A stretch of 64,000 nt of DNA, taken from NCBI RefSeq assembly GCF_001647285.1, contig NZ_LRML01000006.1, positions 186,001 to 250,000 on the forward strand, given 5' to 3'. A program made the translations under genes and the position numbers. The notes under the pieces were generated by a model. The model was not told the origin of the DNA and did not search any database. It was given only the letters and a program-made list of their open reading frames with translations. Every line of letters begins with the position of its first letter. Position 1 is the first letter of the stretch. Source of the stretch: Rufibacter roseus. Its GTDB lineage: Bacteria; Bacteroidota; Bacteroidia; Cytophagales; Hymenobacteraceae. Positions 478 through 60,662 of this stretch are shown one piece after another.

Positions 478-517
478 CTGTTTTGCGCCTGTTTTACGTA
501 AAACAGGCGCAAAACAG
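478..517. repeat. Nested palindrome repeat, copy 1 (perfect)
   Basis: This is a perfect 40-bp palindrome. Each half holds two direct copies of CTGTTTT spaced 11 bp apart, and the other half holds the matching AAAACAG copies. It is the cleanest member of a family of about 22 elements in this window (see findings). Confidence 0.85.
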
Positions 518-541
518 AATTTCTACTCTAGGTAAGCCCAT

Positions 542-573
542 AAAAAAAGCCCCTCCTAAATGGAGAGGCTTTT
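542..573 (-). terminator. Rho-independent terminator of the cold-shock gene
   Basis: On the minus strand a stem of about 10 bp (arms AAGCCTCTCC and GGAGGGGCTT, one mismatch) is followed by a run of T residues. It lies about 30 bp past the stop codon of the csp gene. Confidence 0.8.
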
Positions 574-600
574 GAAGCAATTTGTCTTTATAGCGAAAGA

Positions 601-792
601 CTAAGCGCGTTTAACGTTGATGGCGTTTAGTCCTTTTCTTCCTTCTTGAAGATCATAGACTACCTCGTCGTTTTCTCTGATTTCATCTACTAAACCAGAT
701 ACGTGCACGAAGTACTCCTGATTTGAATTGCTGTCTTTAATGAAGCCGAAGCCTTTATCATCATTAAAGAATTTTACTGTTCCTTGATTCAT
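601..792 (-). CDS. Cold-shock domain protein (CspA family)
   Basis: This small single-domain nucleic-acid chaperone has the cold-shock OB-fold. The RNP1-like motif KGFGFI and RNP2-like motif FVHVSGL are both visible. Its 63-residue length is typical for single-domain Csp proteins. The ATG at 792 is chosen because the product then starts MNQGTVKFF, as Csp proteins do; a longer frame upstream adds only an Asn-rich stretch. It is monocistronic and ends in a terminator at 542-573. Family assignment is secure; whether it is truly cold-induced is unknown. Confidence 0.93.
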   Translation of the reverse strand: MNQGTVKFFNDDKGFGFIKDSNSNQEYFVHVSGLVDEIRENDEVVYDLQEGRKGLNAINVKRA

Positions 793-918
793 ATTGTTGT
801 TATTATACCTTAATGACACTCCTATACTGGTAATCGTTCAGAAAGTTGGGTAGAAAAACCAGAAACTTTCTAAAACCCTGTTTAGAGTGAATCAAGGGCC
901 AAAAAAATAAAATTAACT

Positions 919-1572
919 CTATACCGGCCACTCCTCTAATCTATAGGCACTATCCCAGAACATCCATTCCAATTTTGAGGCGGTCACATAGGCCGCGGTC
1001 ATGACTTGGTGTTGGGCGGAGGTGCAGGTCTCTGCCACTTCGTCACATACCCGGATGGCGCGGGCCACAATCTTCCCGAACTCCTCGCCGGCGTAGGTGT
1101 TGATCCAGTCCTGATACGGGTTGTCGGGCAGCTGCTCCTGGGCTAAAATGTAGTCGCCTACGGCTTTGTAAATCCAGAAGCAGGGGAGCACGGAAGCCAT
1201 GGCTACCTCTAGGGGTGCCAGCGCTGCCTGGCTGAGCAGGAAATGCGTGTAATGCTGGCAGGTAGGGGAGATGGGTACGTCAGGCATAATGTTCAGCTTC
1301 TGGAAATAGCCCGCGTGCAGCGCCTGCTCTACCACCAGGGCTCCTTCGGCGAAGCGCATGAACTCCAGGGCATGGGCGCTGTGCTGGGCTCGAGCCGCAA
1401 TAAGCGACAAGGCCCGCCCGAAACCCGCCAAATATATTGAGTCCTGCGCAATGTAGAATTTAAACTTTTCAGGAGATAGTGTGCCGTTGATGAGTTCCCG
1501 GATAAACGACATCTGGGTGATCTGCGTGTAAATAGGGTTGCCTGCCTGCCAGGCGGTATTACTCCAGCTCAT
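919..1572 (-). CDS. tenA: TenA family thiaminase II / aminopyrimidine aminohydrolase
   Basis: TenA-family enzymes hydrolyse degraded thiamine or formyl-aminopyrimidines to release the hydroxymethylpyrimidine moiety for salvage. The 217-aa product has the expected length and typical segments: an N-terminal helix around FIRELINGTL, the PCFWIY region near residue 130 and the C-terminal LEWMFWDSAY segment. It is the last gene of the TPP-riboswitch operon and overlaps thiD by 14 bp, suggesting coupled translation. Its position next to thiD and thiM supports pyrimidine salvage over a regulatory role. Confidence 0.92.
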   Translation of the reverse strand: MSWSNTAWQAGNPIYTQITQMSFIRELINGTLSPEKFKFYIAQDSIYLAGFGRALSLIAARAQHSAHALEFMRFAEGALVVEQALHAGYFQKLNIMPDVPISPTCQHYTHFLLSQAALAPLEVAMASVLPCFWIYKAVGDYILAQEQLPDNPYQDWINTYAGEEFGKIVARAIRVCDEVAETCTSAQHQVMTAAYVTASKLEWMFWDSAYRLEEWPV

Positions 1573-2389
1573 GTTTCTGTAGGGGTTGCGGGTGGAAGAA
1601 ATGATTGAGGGGGCCGTGACCTTCGCCGGTTTTCACGTCCTTGCCTTGGTCAATGGCCTCGTACACGTAGGCACGGGCTTGCGCAATGGCGTGGGTGATG
1701 GGGAAACCCAAGCTCAGGTACGCCGCAATGGCTGAGGAAAGCGTGCAACCGGTGCCATGCGTGTTCTGGCTCTGGATTGCTTCTGATTCAAACACCTGCA
1801 CCTCTCCGTGCTGCGGCTGGTACACATCATACAGCCGTGGGCCTTGCAGGTGACCTCCCTTCAACAGCACCGATCCGCAGCCTGTCTGCAGAATTTTCTG
1901 AGCCGCTATTTTCATCTCGTCCACGTTCCGGATTTCTAGGTCACTCAGGATATTTGCCTCGTCTAGATTAGGCGTAGCCACCAGGGCCAGCGGAAAAAGT
2001 ACTTGTTGCAGCAGACTGATAGTCTCATCCTGCATGAGTTTATCGCCGCTGGTAGCTACCATCACCGGGTCCAGCACCACCGGCACTTGGTACTGCCTTA
2101 GTACCTCCGCAATGGCCTGCACCAGCTCGGGGCTATGCACCATGCCAATCTTGATGGCGGCTGGTTTAATGTCTTCCATCACGGCCTTGATCTGCCCTTG
2201 CACCACCTCTGTAGGAATGCTGTGAATACCGGTCACGCCACGAGTGTTCTGTACCGTAATGGCGGTTATAGCCGAGGTACCAAAGCAGCCCAGCGCCGAA
2301 AAGGTTTTCAAATCAGCTTGAATGCCGGCTCCGCCACCGCTGTCTGATCCGGCAATGGTGAGCACAGCCGGGTATTTATAAGTTTTCAT
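1559..2389 (-). CDS. thiD: Hydroxymethylpyrimidine/phosphomethylpyrimidine kinase
   Basis: ThiD phosphorylates HMP and HMP-phosphate to HMP-pyrophosphate, the pyrimidine half of thiamine. The 276-aa ribokinase-fold protein shows the N-terminal motif TIAGSDSGGGAGIQAD and the C-terminal anion-hole motif NTHGTGCTLSSAIAA. It overlaps thiE by 4 bp (ATGA type) and tenA by 14 bp, so the three genes form one translationally coupled unit. Confidence 0.96.
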   Translation of the reverse strand: MKTYKYPAVLTIAGSDSGGGAGIQADLKTFSALGCFGTSAITAITVQNTRGVTGIHSIPTEVVQGQIKAVMEDIKPAAIKIGMVHSPELVQAIAEVLRQYQVPVVLDPVMVATSGDKLMQDETISLLQQVLFPLALVATPNLDEANILSDLEIRNVDEMKIAAQKILQTGCGSVLLKGGHLQGPRLYDVYQPQHGEVQVFESEAIQSQNTHGTGCTLSSAIAAYLSLGFPITHAIAQARAYVYEAIDQGKDVKTGEGHGPLNHFFHPQPLQKHELE

Positions 2390-3027: not shown

Positions 3028-3061
3028 GTTTAGTCTAATCTTGTATTACAACTTACTGTTA

Positions 3062-4031: not shown

Positions 4032-4058
4032 AAGAGAGACGGCTGCTAAACCTCTCTT
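4032..4058 (-). terminator. Candidate expression-platform hairpin of the TPP riboswitch
   Basis: On the minus strand, arms AAGAGAG and CTCTCTT flank a 13-nt loop and are followed by TTTC. It lies directly downstream of the aptamer and before thiM, where a regulatory terminator would sit. The stem is modest, so translational control is an alternative. Confidence 0.45.
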
Positions 4059-4137
4059 GCTTTTCCCTACGCCAGTATGACCTGGATCAGGTTCAAAGGG
4101 TACTATCTCAGCTCCATTTTTGGAACGCCCCTAAAGC
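4059..4137 (-). promoter_or_regulatory. TPP riboswitch (THI element) aptamer
   Basis: On the minus strand the conserved blocks TAGGGG, GCTGAGATAGTACCC, TTTGAACCTGATC and the 3' block CTGGCGTAGGGAA appear in the canonical order. The closing P1 stem is GCTTT/AAAGC. It lies about 90 nt upstream of thiM and is expected to shut the thiM-thiE-thiD-tenA operon off when thiamine pyrophosphate is abundant. Confidence 0.95.
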
Positions 4138-4192
4138 CGAGGCCAAGGTAGGAGATTTTGAATTCAGATAAAAACGGTTTACAAACTGAAAG

Positions 4193-4232
4193 CTGTTTTA
4201 GGGCTGTTTTCTGGAAAATAAGCAGAAAACGG
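4193..4232. repeat. Nested palindrome repeat, copy 2
   Basis: Two CTGTTTT units 11 bp apart are followed by imperfect AAAA and GAAAACG arms. It lies in the divergent gap between the thi operon and umuD. Confidence 0.65.
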
Positions 4233-7853: not shown

Positions 7854-7892
7854 CTGTTTTATGGCTGTTTTTCAGAAAACAAGCTTAAAACG
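7854..7892. repeat. Nested palindrome repeat, copy 3, overlapping a stop codon
   Basis: CTGTTTT, CTGTTTT, AAAACA and AAAACG units in the family order. The right arm covers the last codons and the stop (7885-7887) of the neighbouring minus-strand barrel gene. Confidence 0.75.
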
Positions 7893-8985
7893 CCTCATAT
7901 AAACTGAAGTACACGCCGGGCATTTCCTCAGACAGAGCCATGTCTATGCGCAGGTTAATGCCTTCATCATTAAGGCGGAAGCGCAGGCCGGCACCGGCGG
8001 CAGGGTGGAGGCCTCTAAAGTTCAGATCTTCCAGGGTAGGGGCTACTTTGCCCGCGCCGGCAAATGCGGCAGCGCCAACGCGCCAGAACAAGGGCACCCG
8101 GTACTCCAGTTGGTACACCATGGCGTGCCTGTCGCGGAAGCGGGCCTCTAAATACCCGCGCAAAATGTTACCGCCGCCTATGGGCGATAAATACTGGAAA
8201 GGTACTTCTCCACTGGTGAACGTGAACAGGCCCTGCCCAGCTAATACCCCGTTAAAAGGTGCCGGCACATACTTCCGGAAATCGAGGCGATAGCGGGCAA
8301 AGTTGCTGCTGCTGCCCAACACTTTGCCGAACCACTGCACTGACGCCTGGTGAAAAGCACCCTTCCGGGGAATGTACAGGTGGTCGCGGGTGTCATAACT
8401 GGCAGTGGGACCCAGCCCGAAAGCATTTGTACCTGCACCTCCCACAATGTTGCCCGTGTTTAACTGCCCTTCGGCTTCCCGTTTGGAAATAACATCGTGC
8501 CTGAAATTTAAAAGACCGCCCAGGTACACTTTGTCCGAGATTTTCTGTTCAAACTGTAATGAACCATATAGGGCACGGCTGGTGTAGTGCTCTTCCGCTT
8601 CTTGTGTGGTATTGTTGCCTATCCCGTAAAACACATAAGGGTAATTCACGAAGTTCATGGTGCCCAACCAATGTTTGCGGTTGTGCTTGCGCCAGATATC
8701 GGTGCGAAGGGTAGAGATAACCTGTTTTCTGAGCGTATAAAAAAACGTGAGGGAATGCGTGCTGGGCCTATCGGTGGCATATCCGCCCACCTGCCTTTTC
8801 ACCAGAATCGCTTTGGCGCCAAAAGAAAAACTGGTTTCTGGGGAATAGGTTGCCGCCGGAAAAACCGTCAGCTTCTTTTTAGCCGCCACAGTGTCTGGTG
8901 CCATGACAGCGGTTTGTGTCTGGGCAACGGTATACGCGCTCTTGACCAGGAAAAGCACCAGCAAGAAAAGAGGTTTAGTTTTCAA
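7885..8985 (-). CDS. BamA/TamA-like outer-membrane barrel without POTRA domains (paralogue 1)
   Basis: The 366-aa product has a signal peptide (hydrophobic, ending VAQTQ) and reads as the Omp85 (Bac_surface_Ag) barrel with no POTRA repeats: FGLGPTASYDTRDH, the FTSGEVPFQYLSPIGGGNILRGYLEARFRD segment and a terminal aromatic residue (YEAF). The RGYLEARFRD segment corresponds to the Omp85 loop-6 (V/I)RGY/F motif. It is paralogous to the next gene. Role unknown; barrel-only Omp85 proteins are known from Bacteroidota. The frame opens with TTG at 8985, since no ATG is available before an upstream stop. Confidence 0.82.
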   Translation of the reverse strand: MKTKPLFLLVLFLVKSAYTVAQTQTAVMAPDTVAAKKKLTVFPAATYSPETSFSFGAKAILVKRQVGGYATDRPSTHSLTFFYTLRKQVISTLRTDIWRKHNRKHWLGTMNFVNYPYVFYGIGNNTTQEAEEHYTSRALYGSLQFEQKISDKVYLGGLLNFRHDVISKREAEGQLNTGNIVGGAGTNAFGLGPTASYDTRDHLYIPRKGAFHQASVQWFGKVLGSSSNFARYRLDFRKYVPAPFNGVLAGQGLFTFTSGEVPFQYLSPIGGGNILRGYLEARFRDRHAMVYQLEYRVPLFWRVGAAAFAGAGKVAPTLEDLNFRGLHPAAGAGLRFRLNDEGINLRIDMALSEEMPGVYFSLYEAF

Positions 8986-9185: not shown

Positions 9186-9225
9186 CTGTTTCAGGCCTGT
9201 TTTAGCAAAAACACCGCTAAAACAG
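9186..9225. repeat. Nested palindrome repeat, copy 4
   Basis: CTGTTTC, CCTGTTTT, AAAAACA and AAAACAG units in order, between the two barrel genes. Confidence 0.75.
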
Positions 9226-10450: not shown

Positions 10451-10489
10451 CTGTTTTTACGCCAGTTTTAGAAAAACAGCCCTAAAACG
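10451..10489. repeat. Nested palindrome repeat, copy 5
   Basis: CTGTTTT, CAGTTTT, AAAACAG and AAAACG units between a minus-strand barrel gene and a plus-strand HD gene. Confidence 0.7.
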
Positions 10490-10552
10490 CTGTTATACGC
10501 CTGCAGGCGCTTTGAAGCTGGGCTTTCCAGATTTTTTGCCTAGTTTTCGGAG

Positions 10553-12938: not shown

Positions 12939-14699
12939 ATGTTCATGAAAAATACATTGAAGAAATTTTGTACTGCCGCTGCTGCCTTTTCTCTTTTCCT
13001 TGGCTCATCAGTTGTTCTGGCACAGACCGCTAACCAGGTTTTCAGAGCCGCCGGCACTCCACAAAGCCCTAAAGTCACCGTCAGCTGGAACCGTTATTAT
13101 GACCATGCCGGCATCAATGAAATCTGCCGCAAGCTGGCTGAGGCTCATCCTGACCTGGTGAAGCTGGAAACAGTGGGTGAGTCTTTTGGAGGCAGGAGAA
13201 TGATTGCGCTGGTCATTACCGATTACAAGACCGGTGACCCAAACAAGAAGCCAGGCATGTACATCGACGGCAACATCCACTCCAATGAGATACAGGGAGC
13301 GGAATTTGCCCTGTACACCGCCTGGTATTTAGCCGAAAGCTTCCAAGACAACAAGTTCATTAAAGAACTGCTGCAGCAGAAGACGTTTTATATCGTGCCC
13401 ACTATCAATCCAGATGCCCGTGATCATTTCATGCACTCGGCTAACACGGCTCACTCCCCCAGATCTGGCATGATTCCGCTAGATGATGACGGTGACGGAT
13501 TGGTAGACGAGGATCAGCCCGATGACCTTAACAACGACGGCCATATTACCTTCATGCGCCGCAAATCAGCCAACGGCCGCTATATCATTGATCCGCACAA
13601 CCCCTTCCGGCTGATACCGGCAAAACCTGATCAGGCAGGAGAGTATGAAATTTTGGGTTATGAAGGAATAGACAACGACGGCGACGGTAAAATAAACGAA
13701 GACCCGCCCGGCTATTATGACCCTAACCGCGATTGGGCTTGGAACTGGCAGCCCGATTACGTGCAGCGGGGTGCCTATAAATATCCGTTTTCCATACCTG
13801 AAAACCGCAACGTGAAAGACTTTGTGTTACGCCACCCCAACATTGCCGGCGCGCAGAGTTACCATAACTATGGCGGCATGGTTTTGCGCGGTCCAGGGGC
13901 CGAGGAAGACACCAATACCTACACCCGTGAAGACAACCAAGTGTATGACCAGCTGGGCAATTACGCCGAAACCATTATACCAGGGTATGATTACATGGTG
14001 GTGTATAAAGACCTTTATTCTGCTTTCGGTGGTGAGTTAGATTGGTTCCATGGCGCCCGCGGCGTTTTCACCTTCTCCAACGAGCTGATGTCGCCGTACC
14101 TGCAGTTCCACCGGCGGCAGGCTCCGGGGCAAGACCGTGATCTGGAATTCTATGAGTTTGATAAGATGCTGCTGTTCAGCGATGCCTTTGTGGAGTGGGC
14201 TCCATTTGACCACCCAGCCTACGGCCCCATTGAGATTGGGGGCTTCAAGAAGAATTACTCCCGCGCGCACCCGGGCTTTTTACTGGAGGAAGATGCCCAC
14301 CGCAACATGGCCTTTACCGTGTACCATGCCTACCAAACCCCAAACTTAGTGATTCAGGACGCCACCACCAGAAAGCTGGGAAACGGGCTGACAGAAGTGA
14401 CCGTGACGGTAGCCAATACGCGCTTAATTCCCACGCACTCCAGCCATGACATCAAATACAAAATTGAGCGGCCAGATTACATCACCCTTAAAGATAAAGA
14501 TGTGGTGGCCGGCATAGTACTGGAAAACTCAGATTTGAATTTGGGCAAAGAGCAGAAATATACGCCTCACCGGTTAGAGGTTCCCAATATTCCGGGTATG
14601 GGCTTTGTGAAAGTACGCTGGATTGTCAAGTCTGCCAACCCAAATCTTGAGGTAGAGGTAGATAGCCGAAAGGGCGGGGTGGTTACACGTCGGTTTTAA
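12939..14699 (+). CDS. Secreted M14-family zinc carboxypeptidase
   Basis: This 586-aa protein has a signal peptide (start ATG 12939, or 12945 for a shorter form) and an M14 peptidase domain. The zinc ligands His114 and Glu117 lie in GNIHSNEIQG, the third ligand in AQSYHNYGG, and a candidate catalytic Glu in FTFSNELMS. The two acidic loops LDDDGDG and DNDGDGK resemble calcium-binding loops. The C-terminal region is probably a beta-sandwich. It removes C-terminal residues from peptides outside the cytoplasm; the exact substrate is unknown. It is coupled (3 bp) to its inactive homologue upstream. Confidence 0.88.
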   Translation: MFMKNTLKKFCTAAAAFSLFLGSSVVLAQTANQVFRAAGTPQSPKVTVSWNRYYDHAGINEICRKLAEAHPDLVKLETVGESFGGRRMIALVITDYKTGDPNKKPGMYIDGNIHSNEIQGAEFALYTAWYLAESFQDNKFIKELLQQKTFYIVPTINPDARDHFMHSANTAHSPRSGMIPLDDDGDGLVDEDQPDDLNNDGHITFMRRKSANGRYIIDPHNPFRLIPAKPDQAGEYEILGYEGIDNDGDGKINEDPPGYYDPNRDWAWNWQPDYVQRGAYKYPFSIPENRNVKDFVLRHPNIAGAQSYHNYGGMVLRGPGAEEDTNTYTREDNQVYDQLGNYAETIIPGYDYMVVYKDLYSAFGGELDWFHGARGVFTFSNELMSPYLQFHRRQAPGQDRDLEFYEFDKMLLFSDAFVEWAPFDHPAYGPIEIGGFKKNYSRAHPGFLLEEDAHRNMAFTVYHAYQTPNLVIQDATTRKLGNGLTEVTVTVANTRLIPTHSSHDIKYKIERPDYITLKDKDVVAGIVLENSDLNLGKEQKYTPHRLEVPNIPGMGFVKVRWIVKSANPNLEVEVDSRKGGVVTRRF

Positions 14700-14730
14700 G
14701 CTAATTTTAGAAAAACAGCCCCAAAACATG
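14692..14730. repeat. Nested palindrome repeat, copy 6, running into a stop codon
   Basis: Degenerate copy: GGTTTT (which includes the TTT TAA end of the M14 gene), ATTTT, AAAACAG and AAAACA. It merges with the terminator hairpin that follows. Confidence 0.6.
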
Positions 14731-14766
14731 AAAGGCCGCTAAGTCAGCGGCCTTTCATGTTTTGGG
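14720..14766. terminator. Bidirectional terminator between convergent genes
   Basis: A perfect 21-bp inverted repeat with a 5-nt loop lies between the convergent M14 gene and the secreted protein at 14778. Its A-rich and T-rich ends give T runs in both directions. Confidence 0.85.
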
Positions 14767-19796: not shown

Positions 19797-19841
19797 TATC
19801 AAATAAAAAAGGGGCTCTTGTAGCCCCTTTTTTATTTGATA
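19797..19841. terminator. Strong bidirectional terminator after the TPR gene
   Basis: Perfect 20-bp arms (core AAGGGGCT / AGCCCCTT) with a 5-nt loop and A/T tracts on both sides. Confidence 0.9.
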
Positions 19842-19861: not shown

Positions 19862-19901
19862 CTGTTTTAGCCTTTGTTTTAGAAAAACAGACCCAAAACA
19901 G
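19862..19901. repeat. Nested palindrome repeat, copy 7
   Basis: CTGTTTT, TTGTTTT, AAAACAG and AAAACAG units in order, just after the terminator. The rest of the 19788-20044 gap shows nothing else. Confidence 0.75.
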
Positions 19902-21138: not shown

Positions 21139-21184
21139 GACTCTGTTTTTGCTGTTTTTCAAAAAACAGCCCCAAAACAGAGTC
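21139..21184. repeat. Nested palindrome repeat, copy 8
   Basis: A near-perfect copy in which the outer arms extend to GACTCTGTTTT / AAAACAGAGTC and the inner arms are CTGTTTTT / AAAAACAG. Confidence 0.8.
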
Positions 21185-25318: not shown

Positions 25319-25358
25319 CTGTTTTTGGCCTGTTTTTCTAATAATAAACCTAAAACAG
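25319..25358. repeat. Nested palindrome repeat, copy 9
   Basis: CTGTTTT, CTGTTTT, degenerate inner right arm and AAAACAG. It lies in the convergent gap between ackA and the DUF2459 gene; the remainder of that 247-bp gap is featureless and AT-rich. Confidence 0.65.
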
Positions 25359-28169: not shown

Positions 28170-28209
28170 CTGTTTTAACGCTACTTTTCAGAAAACGGCT
28201 CTAAAACAT
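28170..28209. repeat. Nested palindrome repeat, copy 10
   Basis: CTGTTTT, CTTTT, AAAACG and AAAACA units between divergent genes. Confidence 0.65.
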
Positions 28210-28340: not shown

Positions 28341-29381
28341 ATGAACCTCAGCAACGCGTCGCTCACTAAAGTATCTATTCACCACGTCGGAAACAAAGGG
28401 CTAGATCAAAAGCTCACCCTTTCAGAAAATCCCTTCTCGCCCGGCGATGGGCTCACTGAAAAACTGGAAAAGTTCTTTCTGGGCAAGTTTAGCAATGTGT
28501 TTGAGAAGTTTCGGTTTAGCCATGCGTCTTCACTGCAATTCAACGAAGTATATACCTACGCCGAGAACATCTTTGCTGACAAAGAAAATTTTCATGTTGA
28601 AACAGAGCGCATAGCCAGGCACCTGTTCGAGAGTTCTGCCCACCCTAAAATAAAGCCTGGTGAACTGTACGTGTGCCATTTTATCAACGCAGAGGTAGAA
28701 GACCGGCAGGTGGAGGCGGTAGGCATTTTCAAAACTGAGGTAAAGAATGGATATTTTGACGTGCGCCGTGAAAAGCGGGACTACCTGCTTTCATACCAAG
28801 AGGGAATTGACTCCAATAAATTCGACAAAGGGTGTATCATTTTCAACCTGAACCCAGAGGAAGGCTTTATTGTGGCTATCATAGATAACCAGAACCGAGG
28901 CGGAGAGGCGCAGTACTGGCGGCAGAACTTTCTGGGGCTCACGCAAATCAGCAATGAGTTTCATCAGACAAATCATTTTCTGAACCTCACCAAGGAGTTC
29001 ATCAGCGAACGCATGAGTGAGGAATTTGAGGTAGAGAAAACCGACCAGATTGCTTTGCTAAACAAGTCAGTGGAGTACTTTACAAAGCATGAGTCATTTG
29101 ATAAGGAAGAATTTGAGACCGAGGTTTTCGGTCAGCCAGAACTGATTGAATCTTTCAGGAACTACGACGGTGAGTACCGCCAGAACTATGATGTGGAACT
29201 GGAAGACAGTTTCGAAATTTCGCCACAGGCGGTGAAAAAACAATCAAGGGTTTTTAAAAGCGTGCTTAAGCTCGACAAAAACTTCCACGTGTACATACAC
29301 GGCAACAAAGAAATGATAGAAAAAGGAGTAGACCCAGACGGACGTAAATTTTACAAGCTTTATTTTGAGGACGAGGAATAG
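28341..29381 (+). CDS. Nucleoid-associated protein, NdpA/YejK family
   Basis: The 346-aa cytoplasmic protein belongs to the 37-kDa nucleoid-associated protein family, which binds DNA and RNA in Proteobacteria. Supporting segments are LTKVSIHHVGNK at the N-terminus, ELYVCHFINAEVEDRQVEAVGIFK near residue 120 and the QYWRQNFLGL region. I choose ATG 28341; a TTG-started extension adds 21 residues that lack family similarity. It has its own promoter, and a palindrome repeat follows at the stop codon. Whether it binds DNA here is untested. Confidence 0.8.
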   Translation: MNLSNASLTKVSIHHVGNKGLDQKLTLSENPFSPGDGLTEKLEKFFLGKFSNVFEKFRFSHASSLQFNEVYTYAENIFADKENFHVETERIARHLFESSAHPKIKPGELYVCHFINAEVEDRQVEAVGIFKTEVKNGYFDVRREKRDYLLSYQEGIDSNKFDKGCIIFNLNPEEGFIVAIIDNQNRGGEAQYWRQNFLGLTQISNEFHQTNHFLNLTKEFISERMSEEFEVEKTDQIALLNKSVEYFTKHESFDKEEFETEVFGQPELIESFRNYDGEYRQNYDVELEDSFEISPQAVKKQSRVFKSVLKLDKNFHVYIHGNKEMIEKGVDPDGRKFYKLYFEDEE

Positions 29382-29420
29382 TGTTTTAGACCTGTTTTTT
29401 GAAAAGTAGCCCCAAAACAA
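29381..29420. repeat. Nested palindrome repeat, copy 11
   Basis: GTGTTTT, CTGTTTT, AAAAGTAG and AAAACAA units beginning right at the stop codon of the NdpA-like gene. Confidence 0.65.
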
Positions 29421-30538: not shown

Positions 30539-30583
30539 AAACAAAAAAGCAAGCTTCTATACAAGAAGCTTGCTTTTTTGTTT
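30539..30583. terminator. Strong bidirectional terminator
   Basis: Perfect arms of about 20 bp (core GCAAGCTTCT / AGAAGCTTGC) with a 5-nt loop, between convergent genes, flanked by A and T runs. Confidence 0.9.
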
Positions 30584-31099: not shown

Positions 31100-31804
31100 T
31101 TAAAGCGCCTGCCTAAAAGAAGAGACTAAAACGTTTTTTAACTGCTCCCACTTCTCGTGTTTCTGCTCCGGAAATTTTTGATTTACCTCCAGCTCTAGCC
31201 CAGCATACTGCTCATCATTAAATTCCTTGCGAAGGTGTGTCACAAATCCATCGGCTGTGCCTTTATAGGGATAATTATACCGAACTTTAAATTGTGGCGC
31301 CGATTTGTGCAACTGTTGCCGCCAATGGGCCGCAAATAATTGCTCGCGGGCTCTACTTGGGTCATATAGCAAACCGATATCAGTATTGCGTAATTTGCCA
31401 CTCATTACTGGAGTAAAACTATGCACAGATAGGTGCAGCACTTTGAGCCCGTCACGCACCCACTCTCCTATTTTAGTTTCTACTTGGTTACGGTACGGAA
31501 AATAATGCTCCTGCAGAATCTTTTCCTTTACATCTGGCGCTATGTGCTGGGTAAATTCAGAATATAATTTGGGGTGGTGCAACGACCTATTCAGCTCCAC
31601 TAAAAGTCTACTGGTTTGGCTAAAGTGCGTGAAATCTCCTATGTTGCTTTCAAAGTTCTGAAACAATTCTAACGCACCAATGTCATACCCTCTATGCGAC
31701 TCCAGCTCCTCTTTTCCTCCTGAAAAAGTGGTACTATATTCTTCCGGAATTATATTTCCCCCGTGCTCACAGGTAATCAATATTTTAAGGTTTTCCTCTC
31801 TCAC
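31100..31804 (-). CDS. N-formylglutamate amidohydrolase-like enzyme
   Basis: The family cleaves N-formyl or related amides with a zinc centre. The 234-aa protein has CEHGGNIIPEEY near the N-terminus, HRGYDIGALELF and LSVHSFTPV, segments carrying the expected metal and catalytic residues. I place the start at GTG 31804 because it overlaps the GCS2 stop codon as GTGA, a coupled-translation signature; the longer TTG-started frame overlaps that gene by 34 bp. No histidine-degradation genes are nearby, so its substrate is probably a product of the adjacent ligases (inference). Confidence 0.85.
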   Translation of the reverse strand: MREENLKILITCEHGGNIIPEEYSTTFSGGKEELESHRGYDIGALELFQNFESNIGDFTHFSQTSRLLVELNRSLHHPKLYSEFTQHIAPDVKEKILQEHYFPYRNQVETKIGEWVRDGLKVLHLSVHSFTPVMSGKLRNTDIGLLYDPSRAREQLFAAHWRQQLHKSAPQFKVRYNYPYKGTADGFVTHLRKEFNDEQYAGLELEVNQKFPEQKHEKWEQLKNVLVSSFRQAL

Positions 31805-33042
31805 GGTACAAACATTTGGTTCTGTTGCAAACAATTCGCCAACTTCAGGTATACGCTCTTGATTTGCTCTAGATCAGGATTCTGCCCCAGCCCCCGTAAA
31901 AGGCGCTGTGCCAGACAGCCTTCAGAGAGTATCACTTCCACGGCACTAGTCAGTTCAGGGGTGAAGGCGTCTGAATGCTTTACCTGTTCCCACAAGTGCT
32001 GCCATAGCTCCTTGATAGTACACTGGCTACGGTTTAAACCAAACAACTGAAGCAGTTCTGGTTGTTTTATTGCTGTTTCCGGGCCGGTTTTTAAAGAGGA
32101 GAGGAAAACTGAAGCTAACTGCTCCGTTTTAATATTCTGCTGTTGAGGGTAGCTACTCCACCGCTGCTGGGTTAGGTATTTTAATACTTCGGTGACCAAT
32201 GTTACAATGGACACATCAGCCAGCGGACATTCCTGGTTATCAATGATTCTAATTTCAATGGCACCACGGCTAAACCGAGCAATGGCTCCACGTGAATTAA
32301 GGAATTCATCTTGCAGAACACCATCAGGGTCATAGGGCGCAATGGCTTTGAATATGGGGCCAAAAATATGCTCCCCGTATTCCTTCTCAGAAAACACAGC
32401 CTCCGGAACCACTTGTCCAGCAATAGACGGAATCTTTTGCTGATTTTTACGGTACACCTCCAGGCGTGTGTCAAGAAGACCAGAAACGACTCCATCTAAT
32501 AGCGGCGAGGCAGCACTTAAAGCAGGTATCAGCGGCAAAATTAAACGGATGGCAGCGTGCAGCCTGCCAAAATCATCATCATTGCTGAAAGGCAGATTCA
32601 CATGGGTGCTCTGTAAGTTTGACCAACCATGGCCACGGCAATCAAAGATTCTGTTATAAGCCTCGTAAATTTCACTGGCTTCATGGGGCCACAGCTTTGT
32701 TTCTTTGTAGGGGTTCATGAATGGGTGAGCCCCAGTAGGCAGCAGCATGGCATTCATGGGGGCAAGGATCTCATTTATTCGGAGCACCTCTTGATGGAAC
32801 AGCAGCGGCAAACGGTGCAACTCTTTGGCCGGTCCGTTGGTCTTCAGTTCCAATACATGCAGCACCAGCTCATTTGACCATGCCATCTCTCCCCGCTCCA
32901 CGTCAGACGTTATTTCGCCAGCTTCCATTTTCAACACCTCGTCGGCTATGGGCCTTACCTGCAGCGTGTCACGGTCTACAATCATGTATTCCATTTCCAC
33001 GCCATAACCGGCAAAAAGCCCCAGTTTCTTACGCTGGCTCAT
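31801..33042 (-). CDS. Glutamate-cysteine ligase homologue, GCS2 family
   Basis: GCS2 enzymes of the YbdK type form gamma-glutamyl amide bonds using ATP. The 413-aa protein starts GLFAGYGVEMEYMIVD, the metal-binding Glu motif of the fold, with STHVNLPF near residue 165 and the GAIEIRIIDNQECPL segment near residue 265. It overlaps the RimK-like gene by 14 bp and the amidohydrolase by 4 bp. In this context it probably makes a gamma-glutamyl compound other than, or in addition to, ordinary gamma-glutamylcysteine. Confidence 0.88.
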   Translation of the reverse strand: MSQRKKLGLFAGYGVEMEYMIVDRDTLQVRPIADEVLKMEAGEITSDVERGEMAWSNELVLHVLELKTNGPAKELHRLPLLFHQEVLRINEILAPMNAMLLPTGAHPFMNPYKETKLWPHEASEIYEAYNRIFDCRGHGWSNLQSTHVNLPFSNDDDFGRLHAAIRLILPLIPALSAASPLLDGVVSGLLDTRLEVYRKNQQKIPSIAGQVVPEAVFSEKEYGEHIFGPIFKAIAPYDPDGVLQDEFLNSRGAIARFSRGAIEIRIIDNQECPLADVSIVTLVTEVLKYLTQQRWSSYPQQQNIKTEQLASVFLSSLKTGPETAIKQPELLQLFGLNRSQCTIKELWQHLWEQVKHSDAFTPELTSAVEVILSEGCLAQRLLRGLGQNPDLEQIKSVYLKLANCLQQNQMFVP

Positions 33043-36272: not shown

Positions 36273-36316
36273 GCCTGTTTTCAGCTTCTTTTTCAGAAAA
36301 GAGCATGAAAACAGGC
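36273..36316. repeat. Nested palindrome repeat, copy 12
   Basis: Outer arms GCCTGTTTTC / GAAAACAGGC are perfect; inner arms are CTTTTT / AAAAG. It is followed by T-rich sequence and may serve as the terminator of the LytTR gene. Confidence 0.75.
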
Positions 36317-38833: not shown

Positions 38834-38887
38834 ACTATAAAAGAAGAGGGCTGGCAAGTATACTTGCCAGCCCTCTTCTTTTATAGT
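38834..38887. terminator. Perfect 54-bp palindrome acting as bidirectional terminator
   Basis: Both arms of 27 bp match without a mismatch or loop (core GGGCTGGCAAG / CTTGCCAGCCC) and end in A- or T-rich runs. It directly follows the DUF885 gene. Confidence 0.85.
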
Positions 38888-38955: not shown

Positions 38956-38998
38956 TGCCGTTTTTGATGTATTTTTACAGAACCATGCCAAAAACAGC
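38956..38998. repeat. Nested palindrome repeat, copy 13 (degenerate)
   Basis: CGTTTTT, ATTTTT, a decayed inner right arm and AAAACAG. Weak member of the family. Confidence 0.45.
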
Positions 38999-39054: not shown

Positions 39055-39891
39055 ATGAAAGTACCCGCTCGCCTTCTGTTCTTGTTAAGTCTTGCTTACA
39101 CAGCCAACGTTAACGGCCAGACGTTAGCCTCCCCCCCTGCCTTGCCAGCTACGTCCAAAGTGGTCACCCCAACGCCTAAGCCTGTATCAGCGCCGGCACC
39201 TAAGCCAATGGTAGTTTCCACTGCGCCTAAAACACTGGCAGCACCAAAACCTCAAGTTGCCAGCACTACTTCAAAAGTACAAACAGTAGCTACTTCAAAG
39301 CCAGCGGCAGCCCCTTCCTTAACCCCTGATGCCGCAGAAGCTCCTGTTGTTAAGCTTACTGCCGCAGAATCTAAAATTCAGCAGCTAATTACAGAACGTG
39401 AGCAGTTGGTGTTAAAATATGACTACCTGAAAGCACAGGAAAACAGCTTTTGGGGCAATGCCTCTAAAAAAGACATGAAAGCTGTGATTGATGCACTGAA
39501 AGAAGTACTGCAAAAAGACACAGAGATTATACATGCTGTTTCTGAACAGACTTTAGAGGCAAGAAGGCTTGCCGCCAAACGTGCCGCTGAATTAGAATAT
39601 GAGACCAAGCGTATAGCTAACCAGGTGCAGGGAGACAAGCGTTTGGTAACTGACAACATATTTGAATTGAAAGCTTCATTAGAGAATTCAAGAAACCTGG
39701 TGCGCCGAAGAGAAAAGCAAATCAAAGACCTGGAGGAAAAATTAGTGGTGTCTGCCGATGCCAAATTTGAGCATGATGCCATCGCCGCTTTCTTCGCTAT
39801 GCTGTCACTGGTGTTAGTGGGCTATATTTCCTGGCTCAGAGGCAAATTGAACAGAGTTCAGGCTCCAAAGAAAAAGCTTAAGAAAGCATGA
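39055..39891 (+). CDS. Secreted/anchored protein with Pro-Ala-Lys linker, coiled coil and C-terminal membrane helix
   Basis: The 278-aa protein has a signal peptide (ending NVNGQ), a low-complexity linker rich in Ala, Pro, Lys and Thr (residues about 25-100, with APAPKP-type repeats), a long coiled-coil region (about 105-235) and a C-terminal transmembrane helix (AAFFAMLSLVLVGYISWL) followed by basic residues. This suggests an envelope-spanning tether. It overlaps the next gene by 4 bp. I do not recognise a family. Confidence 0.6.
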   Translation: MKVPARLLFLLSLAYTANVNGQTLASPPALPATSKVVTPTPKPVSAPAPKPMVVSTAPKTLAAPKPQVASTTSKVQTVATSKPAAAPSLTPDAAEAPVVKLTAAESKIQQLITEREQLVLKYDYLKAQENSFWGNASKKDMKAVIDALKEVLQKDTEIIHAVSEQTLEARRLAAKRAAELEYETKRIANQVQGDKRLVTDNIFELKASLENSRNLVRRREKQIKDLEEKLVVSADAKFEHDAIAAFFAMLSLVLVGYISWLRGKLNRVQAPKKKLKKA

Positions 39892-40253
39892 CAGACCGTT
39901 TTATAACGGTTGCCGAATACATTACTTATGCTGAGGCAGTAGAGTTATACCAAGCTTTAGAGCAGGTGGAAATTCTGTCACTAGTGAAATCCTGCGGCCC
40001 TCCCAGCCTACCTTTTGGCGAAGGAATTTATTACCAACTCCAGATCAAAATTAAAGACCACCAGGTGGCAGAGCCTGTTTTACGGCTATTTTCTGAAAAT
40101 CAGGCTAAAAACAGAGTACAGGTTCCAACCTGTCCAACCTGTGGTTCCGTATATGTAGAGCCAGAAGAAAAATTACCCCTCTGGAGAAAGATCATTTACG
40201 CCGGCACCACAGTATATAAGTGCCAACCTTACCAACATACATTTTTTGTATAA
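39888..40253 (+). CDS. DUF2007-like putative signal-transducing protein with zinc ribbon
   Basis: The 121-aa protein has an N-terminal ferredoxin-like region of the DUF2007 type (FITVAEYITYAEAVELYQALEQVEIL) and a CPTCGS zinc-binding pair in the C-terminal half, with a later Cys in YKCQPYQHTF. It is translated with the upstream membrane-tether gene (ATGA overlap). A copy of the genome's nested palindrome repeat lies inside it (40075-40114) and encodes about 14 of its residues. Function is unknown. Confidence 0.65.
   Translation: MTDRFITVAEYITYAEAVELYQALEQVEILSLVKSCGPPSLPFGEGIYYQLQIKIKDHQVAEPVLRLFSENQAKNRVQVPTCPTCGSVYVEPEEKLPLWRKIIYAGTTVYKCQPYQHTFFV
40075..40114. repeat. Nested palindrome repeat, copy 14, inside a coding region
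   Basis: CTGTTTT, ATTTTC, AAAAT and AAAACAG units match the family order. Here the repeat is in frame inside the DUF2007-like gene and encodes PVLRLFSENQAKN. Confidence 0.7.
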
Positions 40254-43034: not shown

Positions 43035-43072
43035 ACAATAAGAGCAATCCTAGAAGGATTGGCTCTTATTGT
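43035..43072 (+). terminator. Terminator hairpin after slyD
   Basis: Arms ACAATAAGAGC-AATCCT and AGGATT-GGCTCTTATTGT, with one bulge, followed by TTTTC. Confidence 0.7.
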
Positions 43073-43109
43073 TTTCGGCCTGTTTTTTATAAAGTAGCCC
43101 AAAAACAGG
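43070..43109. repeat. Nested palindrome repeat, copy 15
   Basis: TGTTTTC, CTGTTTTTT, AAAGTAG and AAAAACAG units, part of a repeat hot spot at 42994-43257. Confidence 0.65.
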
Positions 43110-44500: not shown

Positions 44501-44540
44501 CTGTTTTCTGCCTACTTTTAGAAAAACAGGCCAAAAACAA
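44501..44540. repeat. Nested palindrome repeat, copy 16
   Basis: CTGTTTT, CTTTT, AAAACAG and AAAACA units directly upstream of the CrtA-like gene. Confidence 0.7.
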
Positions 44541-45301: not shown

Positions 45302-45341
45302 GTGTTTTCGGCCTCTTTTCTTAAAAACAGCTCCAAAACGG
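45302..45341. repeat. Nested palindrome repeat, copy 17
   Basis: GTGTTTT, CTCTTTT, AAAAACAG and AAAACG units between the CrtA-like gene and leuS. Confidence 0.65.
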
Positions 45342-48400: not shown

Positions 48401-48468
48401 TGCTGGAAGGCAAGCCGGTGAAGAAGGTGATTGTAGTTCCAGGTAAAATTGTGAACGTAGTAATTTAA
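45463..48468 (+). CDS. leuS: Leucyl-tRNA synthetase with an atypical low-GC internal segment
   Basis: LeuRS charges tRNA-Leu. The class I HIGH-type motif is HVGHPLGY near residue 47, the editing (CP1) domain follows (TRIDTIFGVSFVVLAPEH), and KMSKSKYNVVNPD lies near residue 775. At 1001 aa it is longer than usual for Bacteroidota (roughly 900-950). The extra length lies before KMSKS (about residues 619-790), where the sequence diverges strongly from normal LeuRS and GC drops to about 33%. The rest of the gene is about 49% GC. The frame is intact and the motifs are kept, so the enzyme is probably functional. Confidence 0.95.
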   Translation: MSEYDYRSIEQKWQRFWSENKTFKTDIDKSKPKFYAMDMFPYPSGAGLHVGHPLGYIASDIVSRYKRLKGFNVLHPMGFDSFGLPAEQYAIQTGQHPAVTTKQNIERYIEQLSNLGFSFDWDREIRTSEPSYYKWTQWIFMQLFNSWYNYDTNKAEPIEKLVSEFSMRGNTTINAACDEDTPHVTADAWARLSEKEQQDLLLKYRLTFLSEAVVNWCPALGTVLANDEVIGGVSERGGYPVERKLMKQWMMRITAYAERLLQGLDTIDWPEPVKEMQRNWIGKSVGAELRFQIDGHEHKHITVFTTRIDTIFGVSFVVLAPEHEYVTEITTPEQKAEVEEYVAWAKNRSERDRMSDVKTVTGTFTGSYAINPISGEKVPVWIADYVLAGYGTGAVMAVPGHDSRDYAFAIKFNLPIPEVVAGGDLSKEAHAAKEGKIINSDFLNGLEVKEAIKAGIQRAEELGVGKARINYRMRDAVFGRQRYWGEPVPVYYKDGIPALLEESELPLMLPEVDAYLPTETGEPPLGRAQDWKYRGEFEYELSTMPGWAGSSWYWYRYMDPKNDKAFASQEAINYWQAVDLYIGGSEHATGHLLYSRFWNKFLFDLGLVNQDEPFKKLINQGMILGVSEKIVRSGGAISSNMEIIRTITGARELNDIEVFSQYLSMDVDSFLTEAGTQKQNSTLFVPIEFTTNHTMEVEQILEFLRWKNERMSSVFTVKNGYHIFHYDNAENDYKYFGFEPIYEGESPNLNSTGIGNKTSHNEIPSAFMTRPEVEKMSKSKYNVVNPDVLIKEYGADTLRMYEMFLGPLEQFKPWNTNGMDGVYKFLRRFWKLFFDDQGNWAVTEETPTPAELKSLHKTIKKVEEDIERFSFGTSVSQFMICVNELTALKTKKRAILEPLTVVLASYAPHITEELWNRLGHSESIAYAAYPEWKEEFLTESTFDYPISVNGKVKTKLTFDLKASKEEVEKEVLASEQVQKLLEGKPVKKVIVVPGKIVNVVI
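47315..47840 (+). other. Low-GC, divergent segment within leuS (leucine-specific domain region)
   Basis: By hand count the 480 bases from 47341 to 47820 are about 33% GC, against about 48-50% in sampled leuS sequence on both sides. The encoded segment has the position of the leucine-specific domain just before KMSKS. Only weak resemblance to the normal Bacteroidota sequence remains. Likely explanations are an imported allele segment by recombination or a lineage-specific domain replacement. Confidence 0.75.
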
Positions 48469-48507
48469 CGTTTTGGTGCTGTTTTTCTGAAAACAGACCC
48501 AAAACAT
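48469..48507. repeat. Nested palindrome repeat, copy 18
   Basis: CGTTTT, CTGTTTT, AAAACAG and AAAACA units starting at the first base after the leuS stop codon. Confidence 0.75.
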
Positions 48508-52665: not shown

Positions 52666-52706
52666 TAAAATAAAAAGCCCCGGAATTTCCGGGGCTTTTT
52701 ATTTTA
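52666..52706. terminator. Bidirectional terminator between convergent genes
   Basis: Perfect 20-bp arms (core AAAAAGCCCCGGAA / TTCCGGGGCTTTTT) with a one-base centre lie between the 52144 gene and glnN. Confidence 0.92.
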
Positions 52707-52729
52707 AAACAAGCTAAGAACTTTGCTAA

Positions 52730-57113: not shown

Positions 57114-57140
57114 GTGTTTTAAGCAATTTTTTTAAAACAC
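57114..57140. repeat. Nested palindrome repeat, copy 20 (partial)
   Basis: Only one arm pair remains, GTGTTTTAA / TTAAAACAC, between the two halves of the heptad element. Assignment to the family is tentative. Confidence 0.4.
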
Positions 57141-57194
57141 GCTTATAAATCACACTCAGCTTTCCAGTTCTTCAATCTCTGAAATCTATTTTTG

Positions 57195-58615: not shown

Positions 58616-58631
58616 CCATCATACAGTATCT

Positions 58632-58668: not shown

Positions 58669-58684
58669 GTGCCTAAAATTTATT

Positions 58685-58742: not shown

Positions 58743-58745
58743 AAA

Positions 58746-59418: not shown

Positions 59419-59434
59419 CAAACCCTAAGAACTG

Positions 59435-59474
59435 AAACAGCCCTGTAGCCATAGCTACAGGGCTGTTTGTTTTA
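59435..59474. terminator. Terminator after the HTH gene
   Basis: Arms AAACAGCCCTGTAGC and GCTACAGGGCTGTTT with a 4-nt loop, followed by GTTTT. Confidence 0.88.
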
Positions 59475-59483
59475 CTTACTGAA

Positions 59484-59526
59484 GTGCCTTTTAGGATTTT
59501 ATTTTTTAAAACGAGCCAAAAACATA
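59484..59526. repeat. Nested palindrome repeat, copy 21 (degenerate)
   Basis: Decayed left units, then AAAACG and AAAAACA. Assigned by the right half only. Confidence 0.4.
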
Positions 59527-59563
59527 CAACAGAAACTTCACCTAATAGCTTTTCATTTGTTGT

Positions 59564-60604
59564 TTAATGCTCCTCTTTCTTTAAAGCCATTCTTTGTGCC
59601 AGCACGCTGGCAGCTATTAATTGTAGCGCATGGTAAACCATAAGGGGTAGCAATATAATACCTACCACATCAGCATCTGGGAAGAGCACTTTAGACATAA
59701 CCGTGCCGTGCACCAATGATTTTTTTGAACCGCAAAAGGCCGCTGTAATTCTGTTTTCGCGGGAAAAGCCAAACCAGTTCCCCAACATATTTATCAGCCA
59801 TAGAATCAGAAAAAACAAGCCTAATAACGCTGCCCCTAACAAAAGTAATTGCAAAGGCCCGAAGCCACTGAACATATCCCGCGCAAAGGACTCGCAGAAA
59901 GAAGAGTACACTATCAGCAAGATTATGAACTGATCAAATTTGCGGAGACGTGCTTTATGGGCTTCAGCAAAATGACCAAACCTGCCATTCAGCAATACAC
60001 CCAATAGAACTGGAACCAACACCTGTAGCACCAGTTTTATAATGACACTCCCTAAATCCATTTCAGCACTGGAGCTGGTACTCATGAAAAGCCCCATTAT
60101 TAGCGGGGTCATAAATACACCAAGCAGGCTGGAGATACTGGCGTTGAAAATAGCACTTGGTATGTTCCCGCCAGCAATTGACACCATCACAACTGAACTG
60201 GAAACGGTGGATGGCAATGCGGCAATATAGAATACCCCCAGCCACAGCAAACTTTCTCCTCCTCCGCCTAGAAGAGCACTTCCGGCCCATACAACCAATG
60301 GGAAAAGAAAAAAGGTGCTCAGTTGCACCACCACATGCAATCGCCAGTCTTTGAGCCCGGCTCTTAGTTTTGTGGGGCTAAGCCTAAGTCCATAGAAAAA
60401 GAAGATAAGGGAAACGCCATAGGTGGTAATTTCCTCTAAGGGCAAGGGGCCATGCTCCTCTCCCAGTTCCGGCTTCAGGTAAGCCAAAACGATCATTAAA
60501 AGCATGAGTAACAAAAATGTGTCTAGGCCCATACGTTTGGTAATGGCCTGAATTCTGTGCAGTGGCTTTACACGTATTACTTGCGGTGGGTCAGTTTTAC
60601 TCAA
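59564..60604 (-). CDS. Bile acid:sodium symporter-like transporter (SBF-like)
   Basis: The 346-aa inner-membrane protein has about ten transmembrane helices and the SBF-like pattern VSLIFFFYGLRLSPTKLRAGL near residue 70, AALPSTVSSSVVMVSIAGGNIPSAIFNA split near residue 140 and FCGSKKSLVHGTVMSKVLF near residue 295. Members export or import organic anions with sodium; the substrate cannot be told. The frame opens with TTG at 60604; ATG 60532 (MGLDTFLLL) would give a shorter protein starting at the first membrane helix. Confidence 0.88.
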   Translation of the reverse strand: MSKTDPPQVIRVKPLHRIQAITKRMGLDTFLLLMLLMIVLAYLKPELGEEHGPLPLEEITTYGVSLIFFFYGLRLSPTKLRAGLKDWRLHVVVQLSTFFLFPLVVWAGSALLGGGGESLLWLGVFYIAALPSTVSSSVVMVSIAGGNIPSAIFNASISSLLGVFMTPLIMGLFMSTSSSAEMDLGSVIIKLVLQVLVPVLLGVLLNGRFGHFAEAHKARLRKFDQFIILLIVYSSFCESFARDMFSGFGPLQLLLLGAALLGLFFLILWLINMLGNWFGFSRENRITAAFCGSKKSLVHGTVMSKVLFPDADVVGIILLPLMVYHALQLIAASVLAQRMALKKEEH

Positions 60605-60623
60605 AGACTGTTTCTAATTTAAT

Positions 60624-60662
60624 CTGTTTTACTGCTACTTTTCAAAAACAAGGGCAAAAACG
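60624..60662. repeat. Nested palindrome repeat, copy 22
   Basis: CTGTTTT, CTTTT, AAAAACA and AAAAACG units upstream of the transporter gene. The following 60663-60900 stretch is AT-rich with no recognisable gene. Confidence 0.6.

Follow-up and report, generated by a model that had tools for sequence, protein, structure and literature searches.

The 40-bp dyad and its range

The window analysed here, a 64-kb stretch of the Rufibacter roseus genome (GCF_001647285.1; contig NZ_LRML01000006.1, positions 186,001–250,000), includes leuS, a gene for an outer-membrane beta-barrel, a TPP riboswitch and several terminator-like palindromes. Among these features lie 22 copies of a rigid 40-bp dyad scoring at least 26 bits and three weak copies, as scored by a position-weight matrix for which the window copies also served as training set (Table 1). 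In each 20-bp half of the dyad, two T-tracts separated by one helical turn enclose a G/C block, and a 4-bp center joins the halves. The nested dyad proposed in a preliminary description of this DNA is thus confirmed, but its variable gaps of 3–5, 2–5, and 3–4 bp are not, the true spacing being tighter: in most copies, the two T-tracts are spaced 11 bp apart, as are the two A-tracts, and the middle measures 4 bp. A matrix copy was found at all 22 places listed there, the lowest-scoring being 57114 (16.7 bits) and 59484 (26.4 bits), and the matrix adds three further places, at 61450 (32.0 bits), 32073 (16.7 bits), and 52684 (12.2 bits).

Table 1. Dyad sites in the window, with matrix scores, surroundings, and retention in testable species.
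Position	Score (bits)	Context	Kept in testable species
478–517	48.3	perfect palindrome	
4193–4232	46.1	divergent gap; adjoins TPP riboswitch (4047–4142, minus strand)	
7854–7893	46.3	gene 3' end	
9186–9225	43.8		
10451–10490	43.1		
14690–14729	37.2	right end common to 21-bp terminator-like palindrome (14720–14766)	
19862–19901	45.3	downstream of terminator-like palindrome (19797–19841)	
21141–21180	43.1	palindrome extends outward	
25319–25358	45.9	convergent gap	
28170–28209	42.0		
29381–29420	47.0	first base is last base of gene 28341–29381	
32073–32112	16.7 (11 with refined matrix)	weak, doubtful candidate within coding sequence 31801–33042	
36275–36314	40.1		0 testable orthologous cells
38958–38997	33.4		5/6
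40075–40114	47.2	within open frame 39888–40253 (unselected by gene caller)	13/14
43069–43108	47.9	convergent gap; left T-tract after terminator-like stem	10/10
44501–44540	46.6		14/14
45302–45341	45.8	upstream of leuS	4/4
48468–48507	44.1	first base is last base of leuS stop codon	
49509–49548	45.5	within longer palindrome	1/9 (4/15 with looser intervals)
52684–52723	12.2	weak, doubtful candidate beside terminator-like palindrome	
57114–57153	16.7	weak, position conserved	14/14
59486–59525	26.4	1.9-kb gap	4/4 (long gap, weak test)
60624–60663	39.4	same 1.9-kb gap as 59486	4/4 (long gap, weak test)
61450–61489	32.0	within coding sequence 61151–63586 (outer-membrane beta-barrel); absent from earlier list	11/14 at 10 bits or more

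The window holds 25 sites of at least 12 bits, compared with none in five order-3 Markov shuffles, and the direct-repeat pattern by itself has nine matches against 0.02 expected. Over 463,664 sampled bases of the home genome, 142 sites reach 12 bits; three Markov shuffles of order 4 gave 2, 1, and 0. The density of about one site per 3 kb suggested earlier holds in this sample, and extrapolation gives a total of approximately 1,570 sites per home genome. The preliminary description had allowed that the family might be chance AT-rich hairpins, with no excess over shuffled sequence; an excess was found in the window, in the genome sample, and in the genus scan, which points to an origin of the 40-bp sites other than chance.

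The site is present in all 16 Rufibacter genomes examined and, among the genomes searched, is restricted to this genus. The 104 genomes of five sister genera gave 0–2 scaffold matches each, like the control, and in 80 kb from each of the five genera the matrix finds no site at 15 bits. A de novo dyad search in the sister genera recovered no similar motif, although this search is not sensitive, as it also missed the site in a degenerate Rufibacter species (G006). Isolated model matches, 10 sites in total, occur in six genomes of the sister genera; six of the ten surroundings were viewed and have no neighboring gene in common.

Placement and conservation of sites

Sites are distributed with a strong bias among intergenic regions, convergent gaps being favored over tandem and tandem over divergent ones. 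About 80% of convergent junctions of at least 80 bp hold a site (157/189 for gaps of 80–600 bp); tandem gaps hold fewer, divergent gaps few (none of 19 shorter than 120 bp), and some sites are localized within coding sequences. Occupancy of convergent gaps does not vary with length once they reach 80 bp and is unaffected by another site within 1.2 kb (75/93 vs. 82/96, p = 0.44). Of 153 sites in convergent gaps, 46 are no more than 5 bp away from the closest stop codon, compared with 27.2 expected. In the tandem and divergent classes, occupied gaps are somewhat more distant from other sites (p = 0.006 and 0.014, respectively), as a spacing-driven process would also produce. Even spacing as such, at which a first test hinted, is explained by a null model of one site per gap. 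Long site-poor stretches of contig C1 correspond to long one-strand gene runs.

Coding sequence holds only 5–25% of sites. These exceed synonymous-codon shuffles in all eight species sets (12 vs. a mean of 1.6 in the home genome), and other dialects retain some of them at identical codons, e.g., in 14/14 testable species at contig position 75174. Substitution of the sites for terminators was considered and not seen: with a simple detector, intrinsic terminators were found in 51/98 convergent gaps with a site and 16/28 without (p = 0.67), and in 44/140 tandem gaps with a site and 56/189 without (p = 0.81).

Individual sites are conserved in place between species. When 80 sites were compared between G017 and G022, 26 were not mappable and each of the 54 mappable ones had a counterpart, with no empty position; 39 of the pairs have tight anchors. 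Across 15 species, the site is kept in 234 of 259 testable cells. In tandem gaps, it is present in 129/147 cells if the home genome has one vs. 38/191 if not, and in divergent gaps in 8/9 vs. 19/104. The corresponding values for convergent gaps are 64/64 and 38/50, and since this background is high, the former is weak evidence for individual sites. Directly after leuS, a site of at least 17.6 bits was observed in 15/15 other species; the leuS gene of G060 has a frameshift. The site at 49509 is an exception to this conservation. Among the 39 orthologous pairs with tight anchors, T5–T8, T16, and their partners differ in 0–3% of pairs, position 17 in 5%, T4 in 5–15%, positions 15 and 18 in about 20%, and the G/C spacer positions in 15–40%, while the left and right flanks differ in 54 and 43%, respectively.

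Species dialects and variation of the arms

Different species spell the site differently at the same positions, and over the 16 species the dialects form a series whose half-sites carry 11.9 to 30.0 bits. The matching variation of both arms claimed earlier was not borne out: over 19 copies from the window, the paired share of cells is 77.5%, compared with 77.2% after shuffling. As this test gave no ground for pairing, the model used for the genome search was based on sequence only. In larger samples, agreement between the arms is above chance at columns 8/33, 11/30, and a few others. Double changes between species that keep complementarity number 11, against 6.0 ± 2.3 in shuffled data, and the deviations common to both arms over 16 species (912 vs. 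771 expected) amount to a small pooled excess.

Copies resemble each other on one arm beyond shuffled columns in all nine sets tested (z from 2.0 to 17.4), strongly so in R. ruber, G048, and G051; in the home set, z is 2.9 for one arm and 0.5 for the whole site. This likeness hints at copying, two classes of sites, or uneven site quality. In R. ruber, 130 pairs of copies agree in at least 38 of 40 bases, compared with seven in shuffled data. Among 136 copies of the home genome, no pair reaches 38/40 and one reaches 36, the same as for shuffled columns. Locus-specific palindromic flanks of at least 5 bp were observed at 10 of these 136 sites, vs. 0.4 expected.

Possible functions of the site

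The preliminary description offered three options for the family, namely, REP-like elements, RNA hairpins, and binding sites of a nucleoid protein. The last, the site of a nucleoid-type or dimeric protein, fits best. Near-independence of the arms speaks against a hairpin, and conserved positions together with the species G017, free of Y1_Tnp matches at E 0.001, speak against REP. We consider it somewhat probable that the dyad is the recognition site of a putative protein marking the 3' ends of transcription units, probably for purposes of DNA topology or chromosome organization. The site would probably be bound by a sequence-specific protein, as two or four subunits that read the T-tracts and the G/C block. 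In favor of this reading are the near-invariance of part of each T-tract, the retention of sites in place, their distribution over gap types, the excess in coding sequence, and the near-independence of the arms. By that distribution, the sites mark the 3' ends of transcription units, above all in convergent gaps, and apparently stay clear of promoters. Their role would most likely be architectural or topological, the site offering a nucleoid protein or a topoisomerase a fixed place on DNA overwound by converging transcription. No candidate for the binding protein was found. As a genus-specific binder, the HU/IHF family is not supported by copy number, HU having one to three matches per genome in all six genera. 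Counting against a protein site are the one-arm likeness, the palindromic flanks, the few arm-matching columns, and the retention of site 49509 in one of nine species; moreover, an ordinary DNA-binding protein could change its dialect only with difficulty when so many fixed sites are involved.

The main rival explanation, although in our view an unlikely one, is a self-recognition signal in DNA uptake or recombination. Here a surface or recombination protein would prefer site-bearing DNA, and molecular drive would keep the sites and rewrite them in place, as for the DUS of Neisseria and the USS of Haemophilus. A copy number of hundreds to more than 1000, dialects that differ by species, and in-place change recall the DUS dialects (PMC3630211), and Neisseria DUS and Pasteurellaceae USS (PMC3630211; PMC12616744) have very many copies with species dialects, as in Rufibacter. 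In USS, AT-rich blocks lie about two helical turns from the core (PMC12616744). The ComEC family is over its cut-off in 16/16 genomes, and the larger distance from other sites observed for occupied tandem and divergent gaps would agree with uptake as well. On the other hand, DUS and USS are short words, while the Rufibacter site is a 40-bp dyad placed by gene junction. Nor does the genus have T2SSE, the ATPase family found in type IV pili and type II secretion, over the cut-off (0/16 genomes vs. 13/14 controls; weak matches below it in 8/16). Occupancy of convergent gaps independent of nearby sites, an evenness of spacing that does not exceed the one-per-gap expectation, and the small coding share also argue against uptake.

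We regard as still less probable a bidirectional protein roadblock that halts transcription at gene ends. The symmetry of the site, its placement at 3' ends and in convergent gaps, and the excess next to stop codons would be expected of a roadblock, but the sites co-occur freely with intrinsic terminators, as judged by the simple detector, and some are conserved inside genes.

Mobility, i.e., a REP or REPIN-type palindrome spread by a RAYT transposase, appears very improbable. The sites are palindromic, intergenic, and close to 3' ends; Y1_Tnp genes occur in 15/16 genomes, and the likeness of copies beyond shuffled columns, including the near-identical R. ruber pairs, could reflect copying. 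Of the 10 sides of five Y1_Tnp loci, 7 have a site no more than 500 bp away, with a baseline of 36–60% for the sides of similar-sized genes, and the Y1_Tnp gene of G012 has no site nearby. As the preliminary description stated, no RAYT gene lies in the window, all six Y1_Tnp matches of the home genome being elsewhere. GTAG- and CGTC-tagged REPs are, like the Rufibacter sites, palindromes of 20–40 bp located mostly between convergent or tandem genes, often less than 20 bp from the gene end in convergent gaps, and the CGTC type has been described in Bacteroidetes (PMC3733652). By inspection, neither tag, which such REPs carry unpaired at one end, is found in the Rufibacter consensus or in the listed flanks, and the arms of the Rufibacter sites vary mostly independently. 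REPIN/RAYT populations are also long-lasting extragenic sequence populations, as in Rufibacter, but REPINs are duplicated by RAYT transposases (PMC8049555), whereas no gain or loss was seen in 54 mapped Rufibacter sites, and G017 has tight sites with no Y1_Tnp match at E 0.001. Dialects that differ at the same positions and the lack of near-identical pairs in the home genome also speak against mobility.

An RNA hairpin ending or protecting transcripts is the least credible explanation, as its perfect or near-perfect stems in part of the copies, location after genes, and slight excess of matched arm changes are outweighed by nearly independent arms, a best-conserved part that would form weak U–A pairs, the lack of a link with intrinsic terminators, and, in the window, the absence of Rfam families at gathering score from the site places.

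Returning to the recognition site of a putative topological protein, the proposed role may be likened to the one that BIME elements may play in E. coli as gyrase sites. The E. coli REP/BIME elements, of which BIME-2 are gyrase sites, are palindromic, intergenic, and present in many copies, as are the Rufibacter sites, and the gyrase motif is symmetrical about a 4-bp center with AT/GC waves of 10.75 bp (PMC6379681). Of gyrase-like features, the Rufibacter site showed the 4-bp center and faint AT/GC waves in the flanks, which peak nearer 9.5 bp. It differs from the BIMEs in its rigid base sequence, partly near-invariant T-tracts, fixed positions, species dialects, and the period of these faint waves. 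Among the literature matches listed, the titles and abstract openings show no such family in Rufibacter, Hymenobacteraceae, or Bacteroidota, and the main text of a REP survey whose table includes three Bacteroidota genomes contains none of the words Rufibacter, Hymenobacter, and Cytophag-.

More tentatively, and with less confidence than in the recognition site as such, we suggest a chromosome-marking system specific to Rufibacter, with on the order of at least 1000 sites of 40 bp, typically one per transcription-unit end, and a dedicated putative protein whose specificity would drift between species, with each site respelled where it stands, within genes as well. We know of no nucleoid-protein, REP, or uptake system with a like boundary code with dialects. 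Elsewhere, topoisomerases and SMC complexes have sites at convergent genes, comparable to the boundary suggested here. The site may reveal a sequence-coded boundary between bacterial transcription units. It also opens a testable question, namely, how a DNA-binding specificity with so many targets changes without losing them, for which the sixteen related species constitute a natural dialect series.

The dyad element and its distribution

A scoring matrix trained on the window copies found the element at every place listed in the preliminary description, which had reported about 22 nested palindromes. It is a rigid 40-bp dyad with the consensus CTGTTTTNGGSCTGTTTTYN plus its reverse complement. 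The window contains 25 sites scoring at least 12 bits, 22 of them at least 26 bits, and no site of at least 12 bits appeared in five order-3 Markov shuffles. The excess over shuffled sequence holds in a 463,664-base sample of the home genome (the window and 20 stretches from contigs C36 and C1, not a random choice), where 142 sites were identified vs 2, 1, and 0 in three shuffles; extrapolation gives approximately 1,570 sites per 5.1-Mb genome.

Scanning public genome contigs for the exact pattern yielded at least 111 stretches; among the matches listed, 110 are from Rufibacter and one from Sabulibacter ruber, a locus with one site whose right end is poor. A scaffold pattern leaving the spacers free occurs 13–1,141 times per genome in 16 genus genomes, the low count of 13 in G051 being due to a dialect that does not fit the pattern. 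Each of 104 genomes from five other genera has 0–2 occurrences, i.e., control level. In an order-wide draw of 291 genomes, the 287 outside the genus carry 0–6 scaffold matches, with one exception. This genome, from another family of the order (G222), has 16 matches vs 0 in the control, and those listed are mostly a different repeat type with arms TTTTGGGCAA/TTGCCCAAAA.

Nine of the 104 sister-genus genomes contain 1–6 matches to the window model (both strands counted). Six of these nine contain 10 sites in all, and no common gene was found near the 6 of 10 sites whose surroundings were viewed. Two sister genera have Rufibacter-like sites in six genomes (loci L259–L264, 1–3 per genome); some of these sites adjoin accessory genes, and they are perhaps transferred DNA.

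Placement, retention, and species dialects

Occupancy of intergenic gaps is given in the table. Across 16 species, 157 of the 189 convergent gaps of 80–600 bp are occupied, and no effect of neighbouring sites on this occupancy was seen; tandem and divergent gaps bearing a site are somewhat more distant from other sites. Sites are independent of intrinsic terminators (simple detector, six sets). Coding sites (12/138 in the home sample vs 0–3 in synonymous shuffles) exceed such shuffles in 8/8 sets.

Features of the dyad sites and their surroundings. Genes were called by a codon-usage script rather than taken from annotation; occupancy refers to eight species sets; dialect consensuses were built from 32–85 sites per species; coding sites were compared at a 5-bit threshold, three further ones being untestable. 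Positions are in window numbering, extended along the contig where they exceed 64,000, unless a contig is named.
Feature	Position	Observation
Convergent gaps ≥80 bp		123/151 occupied
Tandem gaps 40–120 bp		24/146 occupied
Tandem gaps 120–180 bp		32/92 occupied
Tandem gaps ≥180 bp		147/240 occupied
Divergent gaps <120 bp		0/19 occupied
Divergent gaps ≥400 bp		25/49 occupied
Tandem gaps, retention		129/147 cells with home site vs 38/191 without
Convergent gaps, retention		64/64 cells with home site vs 38/50 without
Divergent gaps, retention		8/9 cells with home site vs 19/104 without
Home half-site dialect		ctGTTTT.gg.cTgTTTTt
G017 half-site dialect		cCGTTTTTGGCCTgtTTTC
G048 half-site dialect		.cGTTTaGgGgCT.TTTTT
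G051 half-site dialect		CCGTTTTcGGGCTCATTTcc, C at position 14 in 99%
Coding site	61450	11/14 testable species
Coding site (outside window)	75174	same codons in 14/14 testable species
Coding site	80134	5/8 testable species
Coding site	146612	8/8 testable species
Coding site	169245	7/9 testable species
TPP riboswitch	4047–4142, minus strand	dyad site upstream
Site and palindrome	14690–14766	right end of site doubles as one arm of 21-bp perfect terminator-like palindrome
Long perfect intergenic palindromes	19797–19841, 30539–30583, 38834–38887, 52666–52706	several of bidirectional-terminator type
LeuS	45463–48468	residues ~633–766 without match in 14/15 other Rufibacter genomes; matches span 1–632 and ~767–1001 (to 723 in G032)
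R. ruber leuS	G060:C123:31228–33995	split across two frames; frameshift in gene or assembly

Two Rufibacter genomes, G017 and G022, have 80 and 76 sites in 200-kb stretches. Of the former, 54 were mappable (23 lack an anchor and 3 lie in rearrangements), and 54/54 have a counterpart, with no sign of mobility; in 15 mapped intervals, which are long, the counterpart is less certain. In the 39 pairs with tight anchors, 54% of left-flank and 43% of right-flank bases differ. Within the site, divergence is 0–3% at T5–T8, T16, and their partner positions, 5% at position 17, 5–15% at T4, about 20% at positions 15 and 18, and 15–40% at positions 9–12 and 14.

Across 15 species, the site is kept in 234 of 259 testable cells (the other 416 of 675 were untestable; the count covers intergenic sites and enters a few two-site gaps twice). 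The comparison of gaps with and without a home site shows clear retention in the tandem and divergent classes, whereas most convergent gaps contain a site either way. Directly 3' of leuS, a site lies at or a few bases from the stop codon in 15/15 other species. Evidence against retention comes from site 49509, embedded in a long palindrome, which only 1/9 species retains. Within LeuS itself, residues ~633–766 are apparently a variable insertion.

Half-site consensus and tightness vary by species, tightness per half being lowest in G006 (11.9 bits) and highest in G051 (30.0 bits). Since each species has its own dialect at orthologous gaps, the simplest account is a change in place; position 75174 is an intragenic case. 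Home copies are hardly more similar than shuffled columns, and near-identical pairs are present in R. ruber. Some shared variation within an arm, observed in all nine sets, could reflect uneven quality among sites or the existence of two classes of half-site; copying is a further possible source.

Pairing between the arms

Units had been described as varying at matching positions in both arms. This was not borne out, as the 19 window copies pair no more than shuffled ones, which argues against an RNA hairpin. With larger samples, independence between arms holds for most columns, and some match above chance: columns 8/33 (52 vs 30% in the home sample; 52 vs 28% in 111 named loci), 11/30 (67 vs 50%, named loci), and 1/40 (53 vs 42%, home sample). 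Over 16 species, 912 deviations are common to both arms vs 771 expected, a few sites being matched along a base run; the excess is real but small. Palindromic flank extensions of at least 5 bp were found at 10/136 home sites (0.4 expected), 23/350 R. ruber sites (~2 expected), and 1/106 sites in leuS regions of 14 relatives (0.4 expected). Such matched changes and extensions look like occasional hairpin-driven template switching rather than selection on pairing, and the overlap at 14690–14766 is a possible trace of it. The two middle bases of the site tend to be non-complementary.

Candidate proteins and proposed role

Near-invariant T-tract positions, drifting spacers, twofold symmetry, and near-independent arms fit a putative protein that would read each half-site. 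Resemblance to the E. coli gyrase motif (PMC6379681) lies in the 4-bp centre and in faint AT/GC waves along the flanks (strongest period 9.5 bp; AT fraction 0.57–0.68 at 21–24 bp from the centre, 0.49–0.54 at 25–27, and 0.60–0.62 at 29–33). The waves could also stem from nearby stop codons and terminators, and the rigid base identity and the dialects speak against a plain gyrase site. A REP-associated transposase (RAYT) is an unlikely agent, as a search of G017 gave no Y1_Tnp match. The home genome has six Y1_Tnp genes (contigs C1, C3, C4, C33, C36, and C39), five RAYT-sized with weak scores and one IS200-like with a strong score. Pilus-based uptake is unlikely because T2SSE exceeds the cut-off in 0/16 genus genomes, though ComEC was found in 16/16. 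HU is not supported as the specific binder, its copy number not being genus-specific.

The observation holds up and is of more interest than an ordinary family of repeats: it comprises genus-specific DNA sites at gene ends, conserved in place and differing by species dialect. Their placement at transcription-unit ends, most of all in convergent gaps, suggests that the putative protein reading the half-sites may act where positive supercoiling accumulates.
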